A stretch of DNA of 53,000 bases from NCBI GenBank assembly GCA_947167135.1, contig CAMVGV010000015.1:1-53000 (forward strand), read 5' to 3'. Each line of letters starts with the position of its first letter. Within the stretch, counting starts at the first letter, position 1. The translations under genes were made by a program, and so were the position numbers. The DNA is from an uncultured Lachnospiraceae bacterium. GTDB lineage: Bacteria; Bacillota; Clostridia; Lachnospirales; Lachnospiraceae. Below the pieces are notes generated by a model. That model saw only the letters and a program-made list of their open reading frames with translations, did not search any database and had not been told where the DNA came from. Below, piece by piece: positions 11,531-20,385 of this stretch.

Positions 11531-12985
11531 TTACCATGTTTTGTCCTTATTTATTACTTCCTCAAAAGACGGCGGATCATAGTCATATCCTATACCCACA
11601 CTGCCCTCCTTTACAACCACCGTTGCCGCATGGGCTGCAGCCGCTTCCAGTGCATGCTTTATCCCTTCTTCCCGCTGCTGCCCCTCATTTCTGCCTGAAA
11701 TAAAGTCAACAAGGAAGGCTCCGATAAAGGAATCTCCGGCACCCAGGGCATCTGTTGCATCAACCTTTTCCACCTTATGAACGTAATAGCTCTCACCGTC
11801 ATATGCGATTATGGGATCACATCCCCTTGTACCCACGGCTATACTGCATCCCAGGTCTGCGGCCTTCTTTAATACCCGTCTTATCTCCGGTTCCTTAAGG
11901 TGGCTGCAGGAGAAAAAGCCGTATTTCACATGAGGCGCTATCTTTTCGATATCCTCATCCGTAAATGCCGAGTGGAAGTCATAGCATATCTCGATCTTCT
12001 CTTCCTCGTGGAGACGCTTAATGGTTTCGGGAGTCACATCAGCAACCCGTCCCATAGTGATGACATCAAAGCTCTTAACATATTCCGTCTCTTCCGGGGT
12101 GAACTGCACGGGATAGAGATCCGTTACTCCCTCCTTATTCCAGTCCAGAAAGATCCTGTCACCATCCTCCTTTAATATTACAATGCTGTACCCGCTGGAA
12201 CCGTTTTCATCCCGGCACTTTGAAGTATCCACGCGGAGCTCCTTAAGTGTCTCCTTTAGAAGATTCCCTGCCATATCATTTCCGAATACACCGAGAAATC
12301 CCGCCTCTGCATTTAATAGAGCCGCATTGCATACCACATTGTACTCATTTCCGCCTGGATACATTCTCTTTTTTTCGGGATAGATATCCATGGTGGCTAC
12401 CCCGGTACCAAGGATCCTCACCTTCTTTTTCCGGGATCCCTTTTTCTTCTTCCTGAATTCCACCGGTTCAAAGTCCTGCAGGGACGCAAGGTATCCCCGT
12501 TCCTTAAGCTTTTCCTGAATGATATCCAGAAGCGCCTCGGAATTTGCACTTACCGTGTGATAATGATAGCCGGCGGTAACATTTTTCAAAAGACTGGATT
12601 TGCCGCTCTTTATATCCGACAGAAAATGCTCTATATCCACCCTGCTCCCGATATTCAGATCCGCTCTCACGGTCCCGTATACCTTGTGGTAGACAAAGAC
12701 GTCCTGCACCAGTCCCCCGAGATCCGTTATAAGCTTCAGCTCATCAGCCACGGCCTCATCACTGTGATTCACCTTAAAAACACGAACCGCGCTTTTCTTT
12801 TTCGAAAGAAGATAACCGTTATTAGTTGATGAGATCTCATAGCGTTCCGCACGGAGGAGAGCAATGTCCTGCACTATGACCTGACGGCTCACATTGAAAA
12901 GAGACGCCAGCCTCTTACCGGAAACCGGCTCCCTTTCATTTTCGAGATACTCTATTATCTTCTTTCTTCTGTCCTCTCCCTTCAT
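11531..12985 (-). CDS. NiaR-type repressor fused to a PfkB-family sugar kinase
   Basis: A 484-residue two-function protein. Residues 1-60 are an HTH_11 DNA-binding domain ([16 protein letters not shown]). Residues about 70-168 are a 3H domain with H74, E82, H141 and H143, in the pattern of the metal and ligand site of NiaR, the niacin-responsive repressor of NAD salvage. Both parts closely resemble B. subtilis YrxA/NiaR as I remember it. After a basic linker ([10 protein letters not shown]), residues about 188-480 form a PfkB kinase with PGGNEYNVV and the catalytic [12 protein letters not shown]. Within PfkB it looks nearest to FrlD (fructoselysine 6-kinase). It is the last gene of the ECF operon, 4 bp after the ATPase. 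The domains are seen in the sequence. The substrate and ligand are inferred. Confidence 0.9.
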
Positions 12986-12989
12986 ACGG

Positions 12990-14639
12990 TCAGGCCCCCA
13001 GTAATTCCCTTAACGCGGTGATATATGGCTTCTGCAGCTTTGCTTCCGAAAGGACCTCATCCTCCGAGAATACCTTTTCCGCACTGCCCTCCGAAAGAAT
13101 CCTGCCATGTGCCATTACGATTACTCTTTCAAAATTCTCCTCCACAAAATCCATGTCATGGAGTATGGCTATCACCAGCTTTCCCTCGGAGCTTAAATGC
13201 CTTATCATGTCCCCTATGAGCTTCCTGCCTTCATAGTCCTGGGCAATTGTAGGCTCGTCCAGTATTATCACATCCGTATCCATGGCAACAACAGACGCAA
13301 TGGCGGTCATCTTTCTCTCATAGAGCTCCAGATCATAGGGATTAACATTTTCCCTGCCTTTAAGCCCCATAAGCTCCAGAGCCTTCAGTGCTTCCTCCTT
13401 CGCCTTTTCTTCGGACATGCCTATATTCAAAGGACCAAACATGGTCTCATCAAGAACGTTATATTTAAATATCTGGTCATCCGGATTCTGGAAAACGTAT
13501 CCCACCTTATCCGCCAGCATGGCAACGGTCTTTTTTGAAATGTCGTCATTTTTGAAATATATACTGCCGCCAACCGGCTTTAAGAGCCCTTTTAAAAGCC
13601 TTACCAGAGTTGTCTTCCCTGCGCCGTTCTGTCCGATTATGGCCGTGGGACGGTTATTCAGGGTCAGGGAAAGCTTTTGGAAAATCGGCGTTCCTTCCGT
13701 ATAGTAAAAGTCCACATTGTCCATACGGAAGAGCTCCTCCGTATCATCGGCTTTGCTGTTTAGCAGGCAAGAGCCGGTTTCTGCTTCTTTTAAGGGTCTG
13801 ATATTCTTTTCCTGAAACAGCCTCTTTGTATCCTCAAGCTTTACCGGATATGTACCGTCCGGCAGAGACAGACCGTATTCCCGGCATATCCTTGTGAAAG
13901 CCGGAGCTTTGATTCCGTATTCCGAAAGATCGTCCCTTGAAAAGATCTTTTCCGGTGTGTCAAAGTCGATGACCCTGCCCTCGCTCATAAGGATGATCCT
14001 GTCAGCGTAATGGGCAAGCTTCTCCAGCTTCTGCTCTATCATAATGATGGTGATACCTGTTTCCGTAAGGTCATCCACCACCCTGAAGACCTCCTCGGTT
14101 CCCTGGGGATCAAGCTGGGACGTGGGCTCATCAAGGATTATTATGTCCGGCTCCATGCAGAGGATACTGGCTATGGCAACTCTCTGCATCTGTCCCCCTG
14201 AAAGCTCAAAAGGATTTCTGTCCCTGTACTGCCATATATCCAGCCGTTTTAATACCTGTTCCACCCGTGACAGGATGATCTCAGGCTCGGTACCAAGATT
14301 CTGGAGTCCGTATGCCACTTCATTAAAAACCGTCTCTGCTGCTCCCGACAGCTGGTTAAAGGGATTCTGGAAGATAAGTCCCACAAACTCGCACATCTCC
14401 TCAACCGGAGTCTCTTCCACCACTCTCCCGTTCACCTCAACCCTGCCTCCGTAAGCACCGTTATAAAATCTTGGCACCAGACCGTTTATCGCCTGACCGA
14501 GGCTGCTCTTTCCTGCGCCGTTCCTTCCGGCTATCCCGATAAATTCCCCCTTCTCTATCTCAAGGGAAATATCGTTTAATGCAAGCTTCTCCGTATTGGG
14601 ATATCTGTACTTTAAGTGCTCTGCTTTTATGATAGGCAT
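12990..14639 (-). CDS. ECF transporter ATPase, fused A and A' subunits
   Basis: Energises the vitamin-type importer. The 549 residues hold two complete ABC domains that are separate proteins in most ECF systems. Domain 1 has GRNGAGKSSLGQ (Walker A, near residue 40), an LSGGQMQR signature and IIILDEPTSQLDP. Domain 2 has GQNGAGKTTLVR near residue 335 and VIILDEPTIAQDY, but in place of LSGGQ it reads YDLELYERK, a degenerate signature that suggests unequal ATP sites. The start at 14639 (MPIIKAEHLKYRYP) is preferred over the ATG at 14654, because GGAGG sits 8 bases before it and overlaps the earlier ATG. It overlaps the T-component gene by 13 bases. Confidence 0.92.
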   Translation of the reverse strand: MPIIKAEHLKYRYPNTEKLALNDISLEIEKGEFIGIAGRNGAGKSSLGQAINGLVPRFYNGAYGGRVEVNGRVVEETPVEEMCEFVGLIFQNPFNQLSGAAETVFNEVAYGLQNLGTEPEIILSRVEQVLKRLDIWQYRDRNPFELSGGQMQRVAIASILCMEPDIIILDEPTSQLDPQGTEEVFRVVDDLTETGITIIMIEQKLEKLAHYADRIILMSEGRVIDFDTPEKIFSRDDLSEYGIKAPAFTRICREYGLSLPDGTYPVKLEDTKRLFQEKNIRPLKEAETGSCLLNSKADDTEELFRMDNVDFYYTEGTPIFQKLSLTLNNRPTAIIGQNGAGKTTLVRLLKGLLKPVGGSIYFKNDDISKKTVAMLADKVGYVFQNPDDQIFKYNVLDETMFGPLNIGMSEEKAKEEALKALELMGLKGRENVNPYDLELYERKMTAIASVVAMDTDVIILDEPTIAQDYEGRKLIGDMIRHLSSEGKLVIAILHDMDFVEENFERVIVMAHGRILSEGSAEKVFSEDEVLSEAKLQKPYITALRELLGA

Positions 14640-15403
14640 GACAGTATCCTCCATACAGAAACAGCAAGGATAAGCGCCGCCAGAATAATGCTTATGACTA
14701 TATCGGCGCTGCTCTTTTTCCTGTCCGTGATATAGCTTCTCTTATTCCTTCGCCCGAAGCCCCGTACCTCCAGGGCTATAGCCCTTTCTCTGGTATTAAT
14801 GAGGGCACTCATTACAACGGGAGAGATAAGGGGAAGAAAGGCCCGGATCCTGGTGAACAGGGAGCCTTCGGTTTCCATACCTCTGCTTCTCTGGGCATCG
14901 ACTATGGTATCCCTGGTCTTCATCATCTGGGGTACTATCTGGAAAACAGAATTGATGACATATCCGAATTTCGGTGAAAAACCGTTTTTCTCCATTTCCT
15001 CCACCAGATCCTGCGGTGCGGTGGTGAGTACGAACACCGCAAAGCTTAAGAGCATGTTTAAGATATTTAAGGCTATGCCCGCCGCATATATCACGCCCTC
15101 CCTGTAAAAGGTCAGTATCCGGATATTAAAAAGCGGATTCTCGTTCTTATGATAAAAAAGCCCCTGTATCAGAAAGATCACAATGATAAGGGTGAAGGAA
15201 AATGCCACAAGGGGCAGGGCCCGCCTGAAGACCCTCCCGGTCAGAAGGAGTATCAGGCTGAACAGTATGGTAAGGGGGAAGATGAGAAGCCTTCCCCCGA
15301 TAAGCGGGATCAGTATCGCCGCAAAAACATACAGAAGCTTTGTATAGGGGTGCAGCTTATTTAAGAAGCTCCCCTTATCCACATATAGACTTAACGCGCT
15401 CAT
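14627..15403 (-). CDS. ECF transporter transmembrane T component
   Basis: Membrane coupling subunit that links the substrate-binding S component to the ATPases. It has 258 residues and about five to six hydrophobic segments. Two cytoplasmic-helix motifs of EcfT are visible: AQRSRGME near residue 185 and ALEVRGFGRR near residue 215; their Arg-Gly pairs dock onto the ATPases. It starts immediately after the S-component stop, and its end overlaps the ATPase start. This dedicated S-T-A arrangement is a group I ECF system, whose T and A subunits serve one substrate. Confidence 0.9.
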   Translation of the reverse strand: MSALSLYVDKGSFLNKLHPYTKLLYVFAAILIPLIGGRLLIFPLTILFSLILLLTGRVFRRALPLVAFSFTLIIVIFLIQGLFYHKNENPLFNIRILTFYREGVIYAAGIALNILNMLLSFAVFVLTTAPQDLVEEMEKNGFSPKFGYVINSVFQIVPQMMKTRDTIVDAQRSRGMETEGSLFTRIRAFLPLISPVVMSALINTRERAIALEVRGFGRRNKRSYITDRKKSSADIVISIILAALILAVSVWRILSCLS

Positions 15404-16006
15404 TCAGTCCAGTCTTTCTATCTCCGCATTCACATCATAAAGAGCCTTAAGCTTTGCCGGAAGACCCTTAAGGATCAAAAAAGCGATAATGACCGTCAGT
15501 ATTTTGTCCGGCACATCCACCACAAGCTCGTCAAGGAAGGATCCGACGACTACCGGCATTCCGTTTGCCTGTGTTACGGCAAAGAGTGCATCGCCCCAGA
15601 CATTGCCGGTGGTGCCTCCCCAGAACATCACGTTTAAGGGAGTGGAAATTATCACCGCGGCAAGTCCTCCCGCAAGGGCACATACGAAGGATTTCGGAAA
15701 TGTCTCCATAAAGCCCAGCCTCGCGGTGATACCTACCGCAATACCTATTCCAAGACTTGTGAGAGCGTAAACAAGGGAGATATTATCTCCGGTGGTAAGG
15801 CCGTAAATGATATTATTGACCGCACCGCAGATGCCACCGATCACAGGACCGCCGAGAGCGGCTCCGATGCAGGTGCCTATGCAGTCAAGCCACAGCGGAA
15901 GCTTCAGAAACTGTGCAAAGAGCTTCCCGAGATAATTGATACCTATGCAGGCAGGTATCAGAACTATAGTGGCTGCATTGAGTTTTGTTTTGAAAATATT
16001 TGACAT
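15404..16006 (-). CDS. ECF transporter substrate-binding S component, substrate unknown
   Basis: A 200-residue integral membrane protein with six hydrophobic segments, the size of ECF S components. The first two-thirds is Gly/Ala rich with GAALGGPVIGGICGAVNNIIYG, a helix-packing pattern typical of S proteins. Next to T and A subunits the assignment is firm, but the family is not one I can name. NiaX, PnuC and riboflavin-type motifs were not recognised. The linked NiaR-kinase suggests a niacin-like or glycosylated NAD precursor. AAGGAGAAAAG lies before the ATG, 29 bp after the hydrolase gene. Confidence 0.85.
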   Translation of the reverse strand: MSNIFKTKLNAATIVLIPACIGINYLGKLFAQFLKLPLWLDCIGTCIGAALGGPVIGGICGAVNNIIYGLTTGDNISLVYALTSLGIGIAVGITARLGFMETFPKSFVCALAGGLAAVIISTPLNVMFWGGTTGNVWGDALFAVTQANGMPVVVGSFLDELVVDVPDKILTVIIAFLILKGLPAKLKALYDVNAEIERLD

Positions 16007-16035
16007 GATCTTTTCTCCTTTGCCTGTTTATTTGA

Positions 16036-16602
16036 TTAGCCGGCGTTTCGCTTTTCCAAAAGATATTCGTCACCTGTCATTATTCTGACCTGAAGAGGAA
16101 CAAGACCCGAAAGAACGGTTTCCACAGCCTTTTCGGTCACCTGATCCAGTCCTGAAACACAATCCTTTAGATAAATTATCTGTGCCCCCTCATCTATAGC
16201 GGCGAAGGCCGTTGACAGTACACAGCATTCCGCCACCACTCCGGACAGAAGAACCCTGTCCGCTTTACATACCGCCTTTTTTACATCGGGTATTGCCATT
16301 GATGAATATACGGATTTGCTGTAAAGGGGATAATTCTCCAGTTCCCCCTTAAGTATCTCCGCCATCTCATTGGCATAGGCGTCACTGTTAATGTCCGCGT
16401 TTTCCCGGTTGTAATCCTTCCAGGCGCCTTCTGCACCATCATCTGCAAGGAACCTCGTAAATATAACGTCAAAACAGTCCCTGCCATCACGGATAAGCTT
16501 CAAAATATTCTCCGCCGCTTTTCCGAAGCTGTGGCAGCACCAGGCTCCTCCCTGCCCGTAAACATTCTGCATATCTATGACAAGCAGAAGATCTTTTTTC
16601 AT
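16036..16602 (-). CDS. Isochorismatase-superfamily cysteine hydrolase
   Basis: A 188-residue hydrolase and first gene of the ECF operon. The catalytic triad of the superfamily is visible: D10 in VIDMQ, K96 in YSKSVYSS and C127 in GVVAECCVLST. Members cleave amide or ether bonds, and nicotinamidase PncA is one of them. However, the DxHxxxH zinc motif of true nicotinamidases is not found between residues 45 and 95. The activity may be nicotinamidase-like in a divergent form, or an N-carbamoyl or other amide hydrolase. AAAGGAGCG precedes the ATG, behind a strong promoter. Its place in the operon says it acts on the imported compound or a product of it. Confidence 0.85.
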   Translation of the reverse strand: MKKDLLLVIDMQNVYGQGGAWCCHSFGKAAENILKLIRDGRDCFDVIFTRFLADDGAEGAWKDYNRENADINSDAYANEMAEILKGELENYPLYSKSVYSSMAIPDVKKAVCKADRVLLSGVVAECCVLSTAFAAIDEGAQIIYLKDCVSGLDQVTEKAVETVLSGLVPLQVRIMTGDEYLLEKRNAG

Positions 16603-16623
16603 TAAATTTACGCTCCTTTAAGG

Positions 16624-16640
16624 TGACAAGACAGATGTAA
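16624..16640 (-). promoter_or_regulatory. Candidate operator downstream of the ECF operon promoter
   Basis: The minus strand reads TTACATCTGTCTTGTCA between the -10 box and the first gene, including the dyad ACATCTGT. ACAnnTGT-like elements occur in sites recognised by NiaR, as I remember them, and a site here would block elongation or open-complex formation. Only the position and partial symmetry are seen; recognition by the fused NiaR is inferred. Confidence 0.35.
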
Positions 16641-16651
16641 ATGTATAACTG

Positions 16652-16680
16652 ATTTTACAGCCTCAACACCCTTAAGTCAA
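16652..16680 (-). promoter_or_regulatory. Promoter of the hydrolase-ECF-NiaR/kinase operon
   Basis: TTGACT (16675-16680) and TAAAAT (16652-16657) on the minus strand, 17 bp apart, about 50 bp before the hydrolase start. It is a near-consensus sigma-A promoter and the only good one in front of the five genes. Confidence 0.75.
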
Positions 16681-16714: not shown

Positions 16715-16733
16715 TAAGAATCTTTAAGATAAA

Positions 16734-16809
16734 GATCCTTCGCTGTGCTGCAAAAGATCCTTCGCTGCGCTCAGGATGACATTTGACAACTGTGATGCTC
16801 AGGATGACA
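16734..16809. repeat. Cluster of partial dispersed hairpin repeats
   Basis: A truncated GATCCTTCGCTGTGCTGC, a complete GATCCTTCGCTGCGCTCAGGATGACA, and a right-half ATGCTCAGGATGACA follow one another in the aminotransferase leader. The complete copy has a TGC loop instead of TTC. These lie between promoter and start codon, so they are transcribed in the leader. Confidence 0.75.
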
Positions 16810-16826
16810 AAAGAGAGGTGCAATAA

Positions 16827-18162: not shown

Positions 18163-20385
18163 TCACCCGTTCTTCAGTTCATTTTTTCTCACATACATAA
18201 GGGCATCGGCTCTTTCAAAGACCTCGCGGTAGGTTTTATCCGTTTCCGGAACGTATTCGGATAAGCCTGCCGCGATCACTACCTGACAGTTCATTTTATT
18301 ATATTCGACCCTTCTGTTCAGGTCCTCCATGATCTCCAGTCTTCTCTCATAGTCCTGTCCGGTCAGCAGCACCACAAATTCGTCTCCGCCTACCCTGAAA
18401 ACAGGGCTGTGCTTGAACAGCTCGCAAATCATACGGCAGGCACTCTTGATAAGCTCATCCCCCTCCTTATGCCCCATGGAGTCATTTACCTGCTTTAACC
18501 CGTTTATATCGCAGACTACTACTGCGAATTCTTCAATATCCCTGCTGTTTACCAGATTCTCAAACTGGCTCTCTCTCGCAGCGTAAGCTGCCTTGCTCTT
18601 CACTCCGGTAAGAGGATCCGTATATGCGGCTGCCCTTGCTTCGTTCAGTTCTCTTTCGTGTTCGGTTTCACGCTTCACCATTATTGATTGGTTGCTTAAG
18701 ATGATCCACACGGCAAAGGTAAAAAGAATAAGGGTAACGCCGATCGAATAATTATTGATCAGTCCCAGCTTTTCCATTTCAGCCCTGACAAAATCATCCG
18801 TCGTCTGATCCTGTTCCTCTTCCGTGCTTTCCTGCCTGTAATGGGAGATGATATTCTCCATTGAGGTTCGGGTATAAATAGCCGAGGTCTGCTTCACCCA
18901 TTCAAGGCTTGTCATAAGTATCAGCATAAGAAGTACCACCCATACAATTCCTGTTTTTCCAAACCTTCTGTCCTTATGGTCATGGAGCAGGATATGCCGG
19001 AAGAATATAATTCCGATCACGGCCCAGACAGCAAAGAGGAAATAGGATTCCGTAGCCATCGCACCGGTGTACAGAAAATTCGGAAGTAAGAGCATCACCA
19101 CAAAAACAATCATGACAATGACACCCAACAGCCCCGTTACGGTCTCGACCACCCGACCCTCCTTCCGGGCCTTTATAAAGGCGGAGCCCGAAACAAAGCC
19201 GTAAATAATGGTGGCTCCCAGTGTTGTCACATCCACGATCCACCCAACAGCGGTCCGTCCGAAAAAAGGAATGATGAGCGATACGATCACGATGAGCCTG
19301 AATGCATCCACAGGACTCTTCTGCCTGTTGAGCCTTGAATATTTTTCCGGCATAACCTGATCCTTTGACAATGCATACATAAGGCGGCTCAATGCCAGAG
19401 TATTGCCGATAAGACTGGTGATAACAACCGAAAATAGGACAAAGAGAAGTACTATCTCCCCTGCAGGTCCGATATTCCTGTTTGCGGCATAGAACGCGGG
19501 CAGACCCTTTAGTCCGCTTAAGGAACCGGTGTCTCGGATATACGAAAGCCAGCTGTCATACTCCGGAGGAAAGGCAGACACCGAAAGAAGAAACAGGAAA
19601 ATATAGAGAAGCGTAACCGTCAGAATGGAAATAAGCAATATCCTGAATACCTTTTTTACGGGGAAATTGATCTCCTCCGTAAGATTGGATATATTTTCAA
19701 ATCCGATGAACGCCCAGGGAGAAATGCAGGCGATGTGCGCTATCTGGAAAGCAATGTTCCCACCGGGTATGAAGACCGGCTTCATAACCTCATAATTCCC
19801 TCCGAGCCGGATAAATGCCAAAACAAAGCAAACCGTGATCCCGACGGAAAAAACAAGAGAAAGCACGATCACCACCAATATCTTCAGCTTTTTCGTCAAT
19901 GTGCAAAAAAGAACCGATATCACTATGGCTGCCATTGAGAGCAGTATTTCCCCGAAATAGATCTCGTAACCGAAAACGGAATAATGAAAACCGAAACGGA
20001 AAAGATCACCCAGAAAATAACCGGCAAATATGGGAAGTGAGGTGACATTTGCCCAGAAAATGGACACATAGGTCAGTCCCAGAAACCAGGCTGTAAGGAA
20101 GCCGTAGTCAAAGCCAAAGGTAGTTCTGGTATATGTATAGGCGCCGCCGGAATCAGGAAAAATCTCCATCATATAATGGTAATTTCTGGCGACAACCACC
20201 ATAATGGCAGCACCGATCAGAATTCCGAGAACGCTCCCCAAGGGTCCGGCACTTGAAAGATAGGCATTACCCGTAACAACAAAGGATCCCCACCCTATTG
20301 CGGTACCTACGGATATCGCCCATACGGCAAGAGGTGACAGATATTTGTCCAAGCCATTTCCCTGCTTGTTGTCAGAAGTATCCAT
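18163..20385 (-). CDS. APC-family amino acid permease fused to a GGDEF diguanylate cyclase domain
   Basis: A 740-residue fusion. Residues about 10-470 are an APC permease with the TM1 motif SVGTAIGWGSFVVTGNAYL and the TM6-region segment SPWAFIGFENISNLTEEI. Further helices near 478-500 and 555-575 flank a soluble acidic loop (about 505-550). Residues about 585-738 are a GGDEF domain with YTDPLTGVKSKAAY and an intact RVGGDEF (near 660), so it should make cyclic di-GMP. The RxxD inhibitory site before GGDEF is absent. GGAGGAAG precedes the ATG. The layout suggests a transporter that reports amino acid flux or occupancy as a second messenger. The architecture is seen; signalling is inferred. Confidence 0.92.
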   Translation of the reverse strand: MDTSDNKQGNGLDKYLSPLAVWAISVGTAIGWGSFVVTGNAYLSSAGPLGSVLGILIGAAIMVVVARNYHYMMEIFPDSGGAYTYTRTTFGFDYGFLTAWFLGLTYVSIFWANVTSLPIFAGYFLGDLFRFGFHYSVFGYEIYFGEILLSMAAIVISVLFCTLTKKLKILVVIVLSLVFSVGITVCFVLAFIRLGGNYEVMKPVFIPGGNIAFQIAHIACISPWAFIGFENISNLTEEINFPVKKVFRILLISILTVTLLYIFLFLLSVSAFPPEYDSWLSYIRDTGSLSGLKGLPAFYAANRNIGPAGEIVLLFVLFSVVITSLIGNTLALSRLMYALSKDQVMPEKYSRLNRQKSPVDAFRLIVIVSLIIPFFGRTAVGWIVDVTTLGATIIYGFVSGSAFIKARKEGRVVETVTGLLGVIVMIVFVVMLLLPNFLYTGAMATESYFLFAVWAVIGIIFFRHILLHDHKDRRFGKTGIVWVVLLMLILMTSLEWVKQTSAIYTRTSMENIISHYRQESTEEEQDQTTDDFVRAEMEKLGLINNYSIGVTLILFTFAVWIILSNQSIMVKRETEHERELNEARAAAYTDPLTGVKSKAAYAARESQFENLVNSRDIEEFAVVVCDINGLKQVNDSMGHKEGDELIKSACRMICELFKHSPVFRVGGDEFVVLLTGQDYERRLEIMEDLNRRVEYNKMNCQVVIAAGLSEYVPETDKTYREVFERADALMYVRKNELKNG

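Follow-up and report, generated by a model that had tools for sequence, protein, structure and literature searches.

A predicted self-regulated NAD-precursor salvage operon combining an ECF importer with a NiaR-PfkB repressor-kinase fusion in a Lachnospiraceae bacterium

We describe a five-gene operon on a 53,000-nucleotide stretch of DNA (hereafter the window) from an uncultured Lachnospiraceae bacterium (GenBank assembly GCA_947167135.1, contig CAMVGV010000015.1, positions 1 to 53,000 of the forward strand), which we consider likely to be a self-regulated system for salvage of a precursor of nicotinamide adenine dinucleotide (NAD). It combines an energy-coupling factor (ECF) importer with a single protein in which a NiaR-type repressor is joined to a PfkB-family kinase. 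The substrate, the reactions of the kinase and of an accompanying hydrolase, the DNA binding and the ligand of the 3H domain are what we infer from comparison of sequences. In the proposed mechanism the transporter would import a nucleoside of the pyridine type, with nicotinamide riboside (NR) the likeliest and nicotinate riboside (NaR) a less likely candidate, and the kinase domain would phosphorylate its 5'-OH to give nicotinamide mononucleotide (NMN) or, from NaR, nicotinate mononucleotide (NaMN). NMN would then be deamidated by CinA/PncC, unless the amide had been removed earlier by the cysteine hydrolase of the operon, and NadD and NadE would complete NAD. The NiaR part would bind an operator, TGTCTTGTCA, just behind the promoter and repress the operon whenever a pyridine compound occupies its 3H domain. 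For many related loci we envisage instead that this transporter supplies a phosphorylase splitting NR into nicotinamide and ribose-1-phosphate, followed by conversion to nicotinate and use by nicotinate phosphoribosyltransferase (NAPRT).

The operon and its repressor-kinase fusion

The operon occupies 11531-16602 of the minus strand, and its five open reading frames (ORFs) overlap or lie at most 29 bases apart. The first codes for a 188-residue isochorismatase-like cysteine hydrolase (16036..16602; Pfam Isochorismatase, 8.2e-20) and is followed by those for a 200-residue, CD3073-related ECF S (substrate) component (15404..16006), an ECF T component of the CbiQ family (14627..15403; Pfam CbiQ, 2.2e-22), a fused ECF A-A' ATPase of 554 residues (12990..14654; Pfam ABC_tran, 5.6e-52) and the 484-residue NiaR-PfkB fusion protein (11531..12985; Pfam HTH_11, 3H and PfkB). 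These ORF coordinates and the Pfam and NCBIfam profiles bear out the gene content read from the letters alone in the initial annotation. With S, T and A-A' encoded in one operon, the transporter is a dedicated (group I) ECF module.

Within the fusion protein the HTH_11 DNA-binding domain spans residues 6-58 (12812..12970; 4.5e-15, 55.7 bits against a cut-off of 25) and the 3H domain residues 70-166 (12488..12778; 6.4e-33), the latter covering all 97 positions of its profile. The 3H score, chosen beforehand as a test of the NiaR assignment, lies far above its cut-off (113.3 versus 25 bits). Three chains of known structure align with residues 3-167 (1e-31 to 1e-32), and H74, E82, H141 and H143, which we take to be the metal ligands of the 3H domain, are in register with the same residues of 7cv0, 9ebr (named NiaR) and 1j5y. 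The proposal of a NiaR half with an HTH, a 3H domain and these four residues thus held up against both profiles and structures. The fusion protein is the sole 3H protein detected in the window's genome. A variable basic linker (about residues 168-187; 12425..12484), delimited by comparison of fusion homologs, leads to the PfkB kinase domain (residues 204-462; 11600..12376; 2.2e-28, with GGN at 211-213), which belongs to the PfkB family by its profile and by the GAGD motif at 415-418.

To place these proteins in context we used two overlapping samples. The first comprises 397 genomes of the family, including that of the window, 18 of which carry an ortholog of the S component with at least 53% identity, after which the matches fall to 40%. 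For the second, a named collection was scanned with the S alignment, which confirmed 227 relatives; the best 80 loci were studied, with linked genes sought from 2.2 kb before S to 7 kb after it. These 80 contain near copies and include at least 10 of the 18 genomes, so that the two sets are not independent. Named loci of this transporter occur in Lachnospiraceae, Oscillospiraceae and Spirochaetota.

The fusion is carried by six genomes, namely that of the window and those of loci L146, L147, L148, L149 and L201, and is therefore not a chance join. It is the rarer arrangement: NiaR and the kinase are adjacent but separate genes in nine of the 80 loci and fused in five, and among the matches listed from 299 family genomes there was no second protein spanning both parts. 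Relative to the window's fusion the five relatives show 71-99% identity in the NiaR half and 74-98% in the PfkB half, while the linker is 90% identical in L146 and L147 and 35-45% in L148, L149 and L201. In four fusions dN/dS against the window is 0.05-0.11 for both halves, with dS near or above 2 (saturated) in three of them; by this measure both halves are under purifying selection. A frameshift or an artefactual join of two genes was considered as well, and is ruled out by the occurrence in six genomes, the single clade of the fusions in the kinase tree and the low dN/dS.

A NiaR-type box at the operon promoter

Upstream of the hydrolase gene, on the same strand, lies a promoter-like element TTGACT-17-TAAAAT (16652..16680), identified by consensus match only; sites of this type number 15 in the region as against 8.5 in shuffled sequence. 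About 18 bases downstream of its -10-like element we find a match to a NiaR-type operator core, CTGTCTTGTCA (16624..16634), and the site around it differs at 4 of 23 positions from the Streptococcus pneumoniae NiaR operator, taking the consensus given in PMC5343564. The position of this box, in the promoter region of the operon itself, speaks for the self-repression that had been suggested for the system at the outset. The exact core TGTCTTGTCA recurs in 37 of the 80 loci no more than 1.4 kb before S (48 sites), as compared with four copies in the remaining 1.25 Mb of these loci. It is found in 33 of the 36 loci with a linked NiaR gene and in four loci lacking one. Three NiaR-linked loci are without it: two start on short ends of contigs, and L157, which apparently corresponds to a contig of genome G150, has a one-base variant. 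The same core precedes nadA: in 20 upstream regions (from the first 21 nadA genes listed, one at a contig edge being skipped) it occurs exactly in 12 and with at most one mismatch in 15, against base-shuffle means of 0.0 and 0.66 respectively.

Neighboring genes point to an imported nucleoside

Examination of the gene neighborhoods revealed a nucleoside phosphorylase in 47 of the 80 loci, usually directly before S, and a kinase in 14; 19 loci have neither. The two never co-occur and so give the impression of interchangeable enzymes for the initial step on a single imported nucleoside. Consistent with this, the loci with a phosphorylase yield no kinase-like match of 80 bits or more. A NiaR gene is linked in 36 loci, a cysteine hydrolase in 50 and a nicotinamidase-like gene in two. 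The 18 family genomes present a similar picture, with a phosphorylase gene before S in 11 (as a partial ORF only in L092), a kinase in its place in six, and neither in G119. Pfam profiles were applied to two of the 11 phosphorylases and NCBIfam profiles to three; every one of those examined is of the PNP_UDP_1 type (e.g. PF01048 at 7.1e-40 in L088), with scores below the NCBIfam cut-offs of named enzymes. A nucleoside phosphorylase, XapA, is able to make NR from nicotinamide (PMC3923242). What the neighbors in other genomes would indicate had been set beforehand as a test between an NAD-linked substrate and fructosamines, and the outcome favors an NAD-linked nucleoside: next to the phosphorylases, the two nicotinamidase-like genes and the 36 NiaR genes stand the 37 loci with a NiaR-type box and the lack of any match to an FrlB-like or SIS deglycase in the 80 loci (three queries at 1e-5, up to 9 kb on each side of S). 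As for the uptake and phosphorylation of a glycosylated pyridine envisaged in the initial annotation, it is genome comparison that argues for them.

A different nucleoside (a pyrimidine, a purine or a modified one) might be the imported compound, with NiaR merely coupling its uptake to NAD status, and in keeping with this the L088 phosphorylase scores best against a uridine phosphorylase model (191 of the 280.3 bits set as its cut-off). With such a substrate there would be no clear reason for control by NiaR, for the presence of a nicotinamidase-like gene within the operon, or for the failure to detect NadA in 17 of the 18 genomes with the transporter; we regard this explanation as the least probable of those considered.

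A separate observation concerns locus L035 (13741-15949, minus strand; genome G185), where a sensor kinase and response regulator, as read from the sequence, precede S, and where no hydrolase was found beside S.

Descent of the kinase

Phylogenetic analysis places the six fusions in one clade (support 99/94) inside a clade of 17 ECF-linked kinases (99/99), which adjoins five frl-type kinases on a stem of 0.49 changes per column; the frl-type kinases are not monophyletic in this tree, which is rooted at its midpoint only and for which the program warns of long branches. Of eleven positions listed, 196, 219, 267, 312, 338, 413 and 414 are consistently different between the 17 ECF-linked and the five frl-type kinases. 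The description of the kinase as FrlD-like, with which we began, therefore stands as a statement of descent and fails as a substrate label, the ECF-linked kinases forming a clade of their own. A fructosamine kinase is a plausible ancestor of the predicted NR kinase because its substrate, too, presents a furanose that carries a terminal CH2OH and has a charged nitrogen close by. The closest PDB chains of the kinase part are 1tyy, 1tz3 and 1tz6, which we take to be aminoimidazole riboside kinase, a PfkB kinase whose substrate is a small N-riboside.

This descent also bears on the proposition that the operon salvages a fructosamine or another glycated amine, the kinase having kept FrlD activity and NiaR being a carried-over neighbor. 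The best named model for the kinase is indeed fructoselysine 6-kinase (NF007321), and its nearest relatives (L036-L039, 52-55% identity) lie in fructosamine-type operons as far as these were scanned; both facts count against NR salvage as well as for this alternative. The model score is 143.5 bits against a cut-off of 247; as the frl-type relative L036 also falls short of it (170.1 bits), the score is a weak test of FrlD activity. Weak matches to other frl parts were recovered near S, namely a GntR-type regulator in 11 loci, an epimerase in one and a sugar-binding protein in two, one of the latter being the kinase locus L155 with a 28% match about 6 kb from S. Against this stand the missing deglycase, the replacement of the kinase by a nucleoside phosphorylase in 47 loci, the sharing of the box with nadA genes, and the separate clade of the ECF-linked kinases with its consistent residue differences. 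We accordingly judge salvage of a fructosamine to be very unlikely.

NAD routes and the cysteine hydrolase

In the window's genome (99.83% complete, 119 contigs) searches for NadA, NAPRT, nicotinamide phosphoribosyltransferase (NAMPT; PF04095) and PnuC yielded no match; NadC, NadD, NadE, NadR/NRK and PncA were outside these searches. One CinA/PncC domain protein was recovered. Across the family sample NadA is present in one of the 18 transporter genomes as compared with 160 of the 379 others (Fisher p=0.0011, not corrected for kinship). All 11 phosphorylase-type genomes among the 18 possess NAPRT, as the phosphorylase route needs, and apart from the window's genome the only one of the 18 without it is G236 (83% complete, kinase type). 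PncC was also considered as a mark of the kinase type and rejected: the window's copy, read by eye, adjoins a pgsA-like gene and shows nothing special, as the CinA gene usually adjoins pgsA.

These findings are relevant to the possibility that the transporter imports niacin (nicotinate or nicotinamide) like NiaX, while the nucleoside enzymes recycle internal NR from NMN turnover. NiaR regulons are described as containing the niacin transporters NiaP, NiaX and NiaY (PMC5343564, PMC6593275), and in two Roseburia loci a nicotinamidase-like gene accompanies the transporter. With no NAPRT or NAMPT match, the window's genome would have no visible means of using niacin, and the phosphorylases encoded close to S in 47 of the 80 loci, mostly immediately before it, speak for a nucleoside; furthermore, a distant S relative, L101, sits with a RihC-like nucleoside hydrolase and a ribokinase. 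Import of niacin appears to us improbable, though the foremost of the alternatives.

The hydrolase retains D10, K96 and C127, i.e. the Asp-Lys-Cys motifs that we take to be catalytic (20 of 51 hydrolase rows aligned). It does not have the PncA-type Asp-x-His motif, presumably metal-binding in PncA, and shows FTRF where the PncA-like rows G380 and L169 have MDTH and RDTH. In the two Roseburia loci the nicotinamidase-like gene lies behind A-A' and no cysteine hydrolase was found; each of these genes scores 39 bits where the cut-off is 174, and the DTH motif is seen in L169. We propose that the cysteine hydrolase is an amidase of NR or nicotinamide. As such an enzyme points to an amide, the imported compound would be NR rather than NaR. 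In the window's genome it may act on NR or NMN.

A bolder version, which we hold with considerable doubt, is that the metal-motif-less hydrolase deamidates NR to NaR and the descendant of a fructosamine kinase converts this to NaMN, leaving PncC and NAPRT unneeded. It would combine an ECF importer of NR with a NiaR-kinase protein that is an independent counterpart of NadR, and in which the substrate or product of the kinase sets repression in cis.

Observations weighing against the proposal

Beyond the kinase affinities given above, several observations weigh against a NiaR-controlled NR salvage system. In 22 of the 80 loci a phosphorylase and a hydrolase occur with neither a linked NiaR gene nor the box, and in G024, G164 and G208, which have separate A and A' genes, no box is present in the 260 bases before the phosphorylase. 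The window's genome has five box-pattern sites, compared with two for the reversed control pattern, and none of the four sites outside the operon precedes a recognizable NAD gene; hence autoregulation is all that is supported there, and a wide NiaR regulon in this genome, also considered, finds no support. The mutual exclusion of phosphorylase and kinase comes down to nearly one historical event, making it anatomically a strong and statistically a weak argument, and its Fisher value an overstatement. NAPRT is present in four of the six kinase-type genomes, and in G150 the kinase is encoded on another contig than S. Finally, a hydrolase freeing nicotinate would be useless in the window's genome as it has no NAPRT match, which makes the role proposed for the hydrolase tentative.

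The S component and its relatives

The window's S component scores below curated cut-offs against both Pfam ECF_trnsprt (24.2 versus 30.7 bits) and the CD3073-family S model NF045596 (87.3 versus 180 bits), and all 29 rows of our S alignment match the latter. A profile made from this alignment matched no PDB sequence at E 1, and the term CD3073 was not found in the open-access papers searched. In the S tree the kinase-bearing loci fall in one clade of 18 rows (100/97), whose two members without a kinase are L150 and L157, the latter on a broken contig. As the kinase-bearing S proteins form a single clade, the swap of phosphorylase for kinase probably happened once. Locus L150 itself (12019-13444, plus strand) has NiaR and no kinase match, and a 266-residue protein without a Pfam or NCBIfam match follows.

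Relatives of S were also encountered in other architectures. An ECF-S-like N-terminal domain is fused to signaling proteins with a C-terminal HD_5 (HD-GYP-type) domain in L226 (434-4048, minus strand) and L228 (5680-9279, plus strand), and likewise in L229 of the window's own genome (2723-4858, minus strand); its identity to the window's S is 39-41% in the first two and 26% in L229. In the L226 and L228 proteins Reg_prop/Y_Y_Y repeats separate the two domains, and a gene for a PnrA-like binding protein adjoins the L228 fusion. At least 57 of the S matches listed have open frames longer than 1100 residues, L226 and L228 being the ones scanned for domains. This suggests that S components have been reused as sensors. 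Two more distant relatives, 30-32% identical to the window's S, occur with T, A and A' genes: one, L101 (6116-12982, minus strand), together with the RihC-like nucleoside hydrolase, a PfkB protein and a LacI-ribokinase fusion, and the other, L098 (1496-8975, minus strand), with GlmS-like SIS, ribokinase-like, BtpA/SgcQ and allantoinase-like genes. These are perhaps further ECF importers of N-glycosides.

Relation to known systems

Bacterial NR salvage is represented in the literature seen by PnuC plus NadR, and the enterobacterial NadR is described as a repressor of NAD genes joined to NR salvage enzymes (PMC7221760). Like NadR, the window's fusion joins an NAD-gene-type repressor to a predicted NR salvage enzyme in one protein; unlike NadR, it consists of NiaR-type HTH_11 and 3H domains with a PfkB kinase, has no NMN adenylyltransferase domain by Pfam, and has an ECF importer, not PnuC, as its partner. 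Given its predicted kinase activity, it would be an independent analog of NadR built from other folds, and not a member of that family. The predicted substrate and first reaction of the operon are likewise those of PnuC-NadR salvage. PnuC, however, works by facilitated diffusion (PMC7221760), whereas the window has an ATP-driven importer and its genome no PnuC match. A table in a survey of gut genomes gives PnuC alone for Nr (PMC6593275).

The likeness to the NiaR (YrxA) regulons of Firmicutes, as these are presented in PMC5343564, extends to the HTH_11 and 3H domains, the four retained residues, an operator of the same kind and the linkage to NAD precursors. The transporters named for such regulons in the literature seen are NiaP, NiaX, NiaY and PnuC. 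What sets the window's system apart from these regulons is a NiaR fused to, or in relatives followed by, a kinase inside the operon under its predicted control. With fructosamine operons it shares a PfkB-family kinase whose closest sequences found are theirs, and it departs from them in the absence of a deglycase match, in the distinct kinase clade and in having an ECF system in place of the sugar ATP-binding cassette transporter. In the titles and opening parts of abstracts of the open-access papers searched we found no description of an ECF transporter for NR, a PfkB-family NR kinase, or NiaR together with a nucleoside phosphorylase.

In biological terms, this rumen-type gut bacterium, in which we detected no gene for the customary opening step of NAD synthesis or for niacin use, probably relies on the operon to take up a vitamin B3 nucleoside in finished form and to phosphorylate it by means of an enzyme joined to the operon's repressor. 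If this is true, many commensals would compete for host or dietary NR by means of an ATP-driven importer, genome-based predictions of vitamin B3 auxotrophy would change, and the NiaR-kinase protein would represent a separate, second origin of a repressor carrying its own salvage enzyme.

Adjacent features of the window

Two further features were noted by eye beyond the end of the operon nearest its promoter. Between the operon and an aminotransferase-like gene, positions 16720-16810 contain repeated GATCCTTCGCTG...CAGGATGACA units resembling a dispersed repeat. An ORF of 740 residues at 18163-20385 on the minus strand, judged from its translation, reads as a relative of amino-acid permeases whose C-terminus is of the GGDEF type (RVGGDEF), and would be a fusion of a transporter with a signaling domain.

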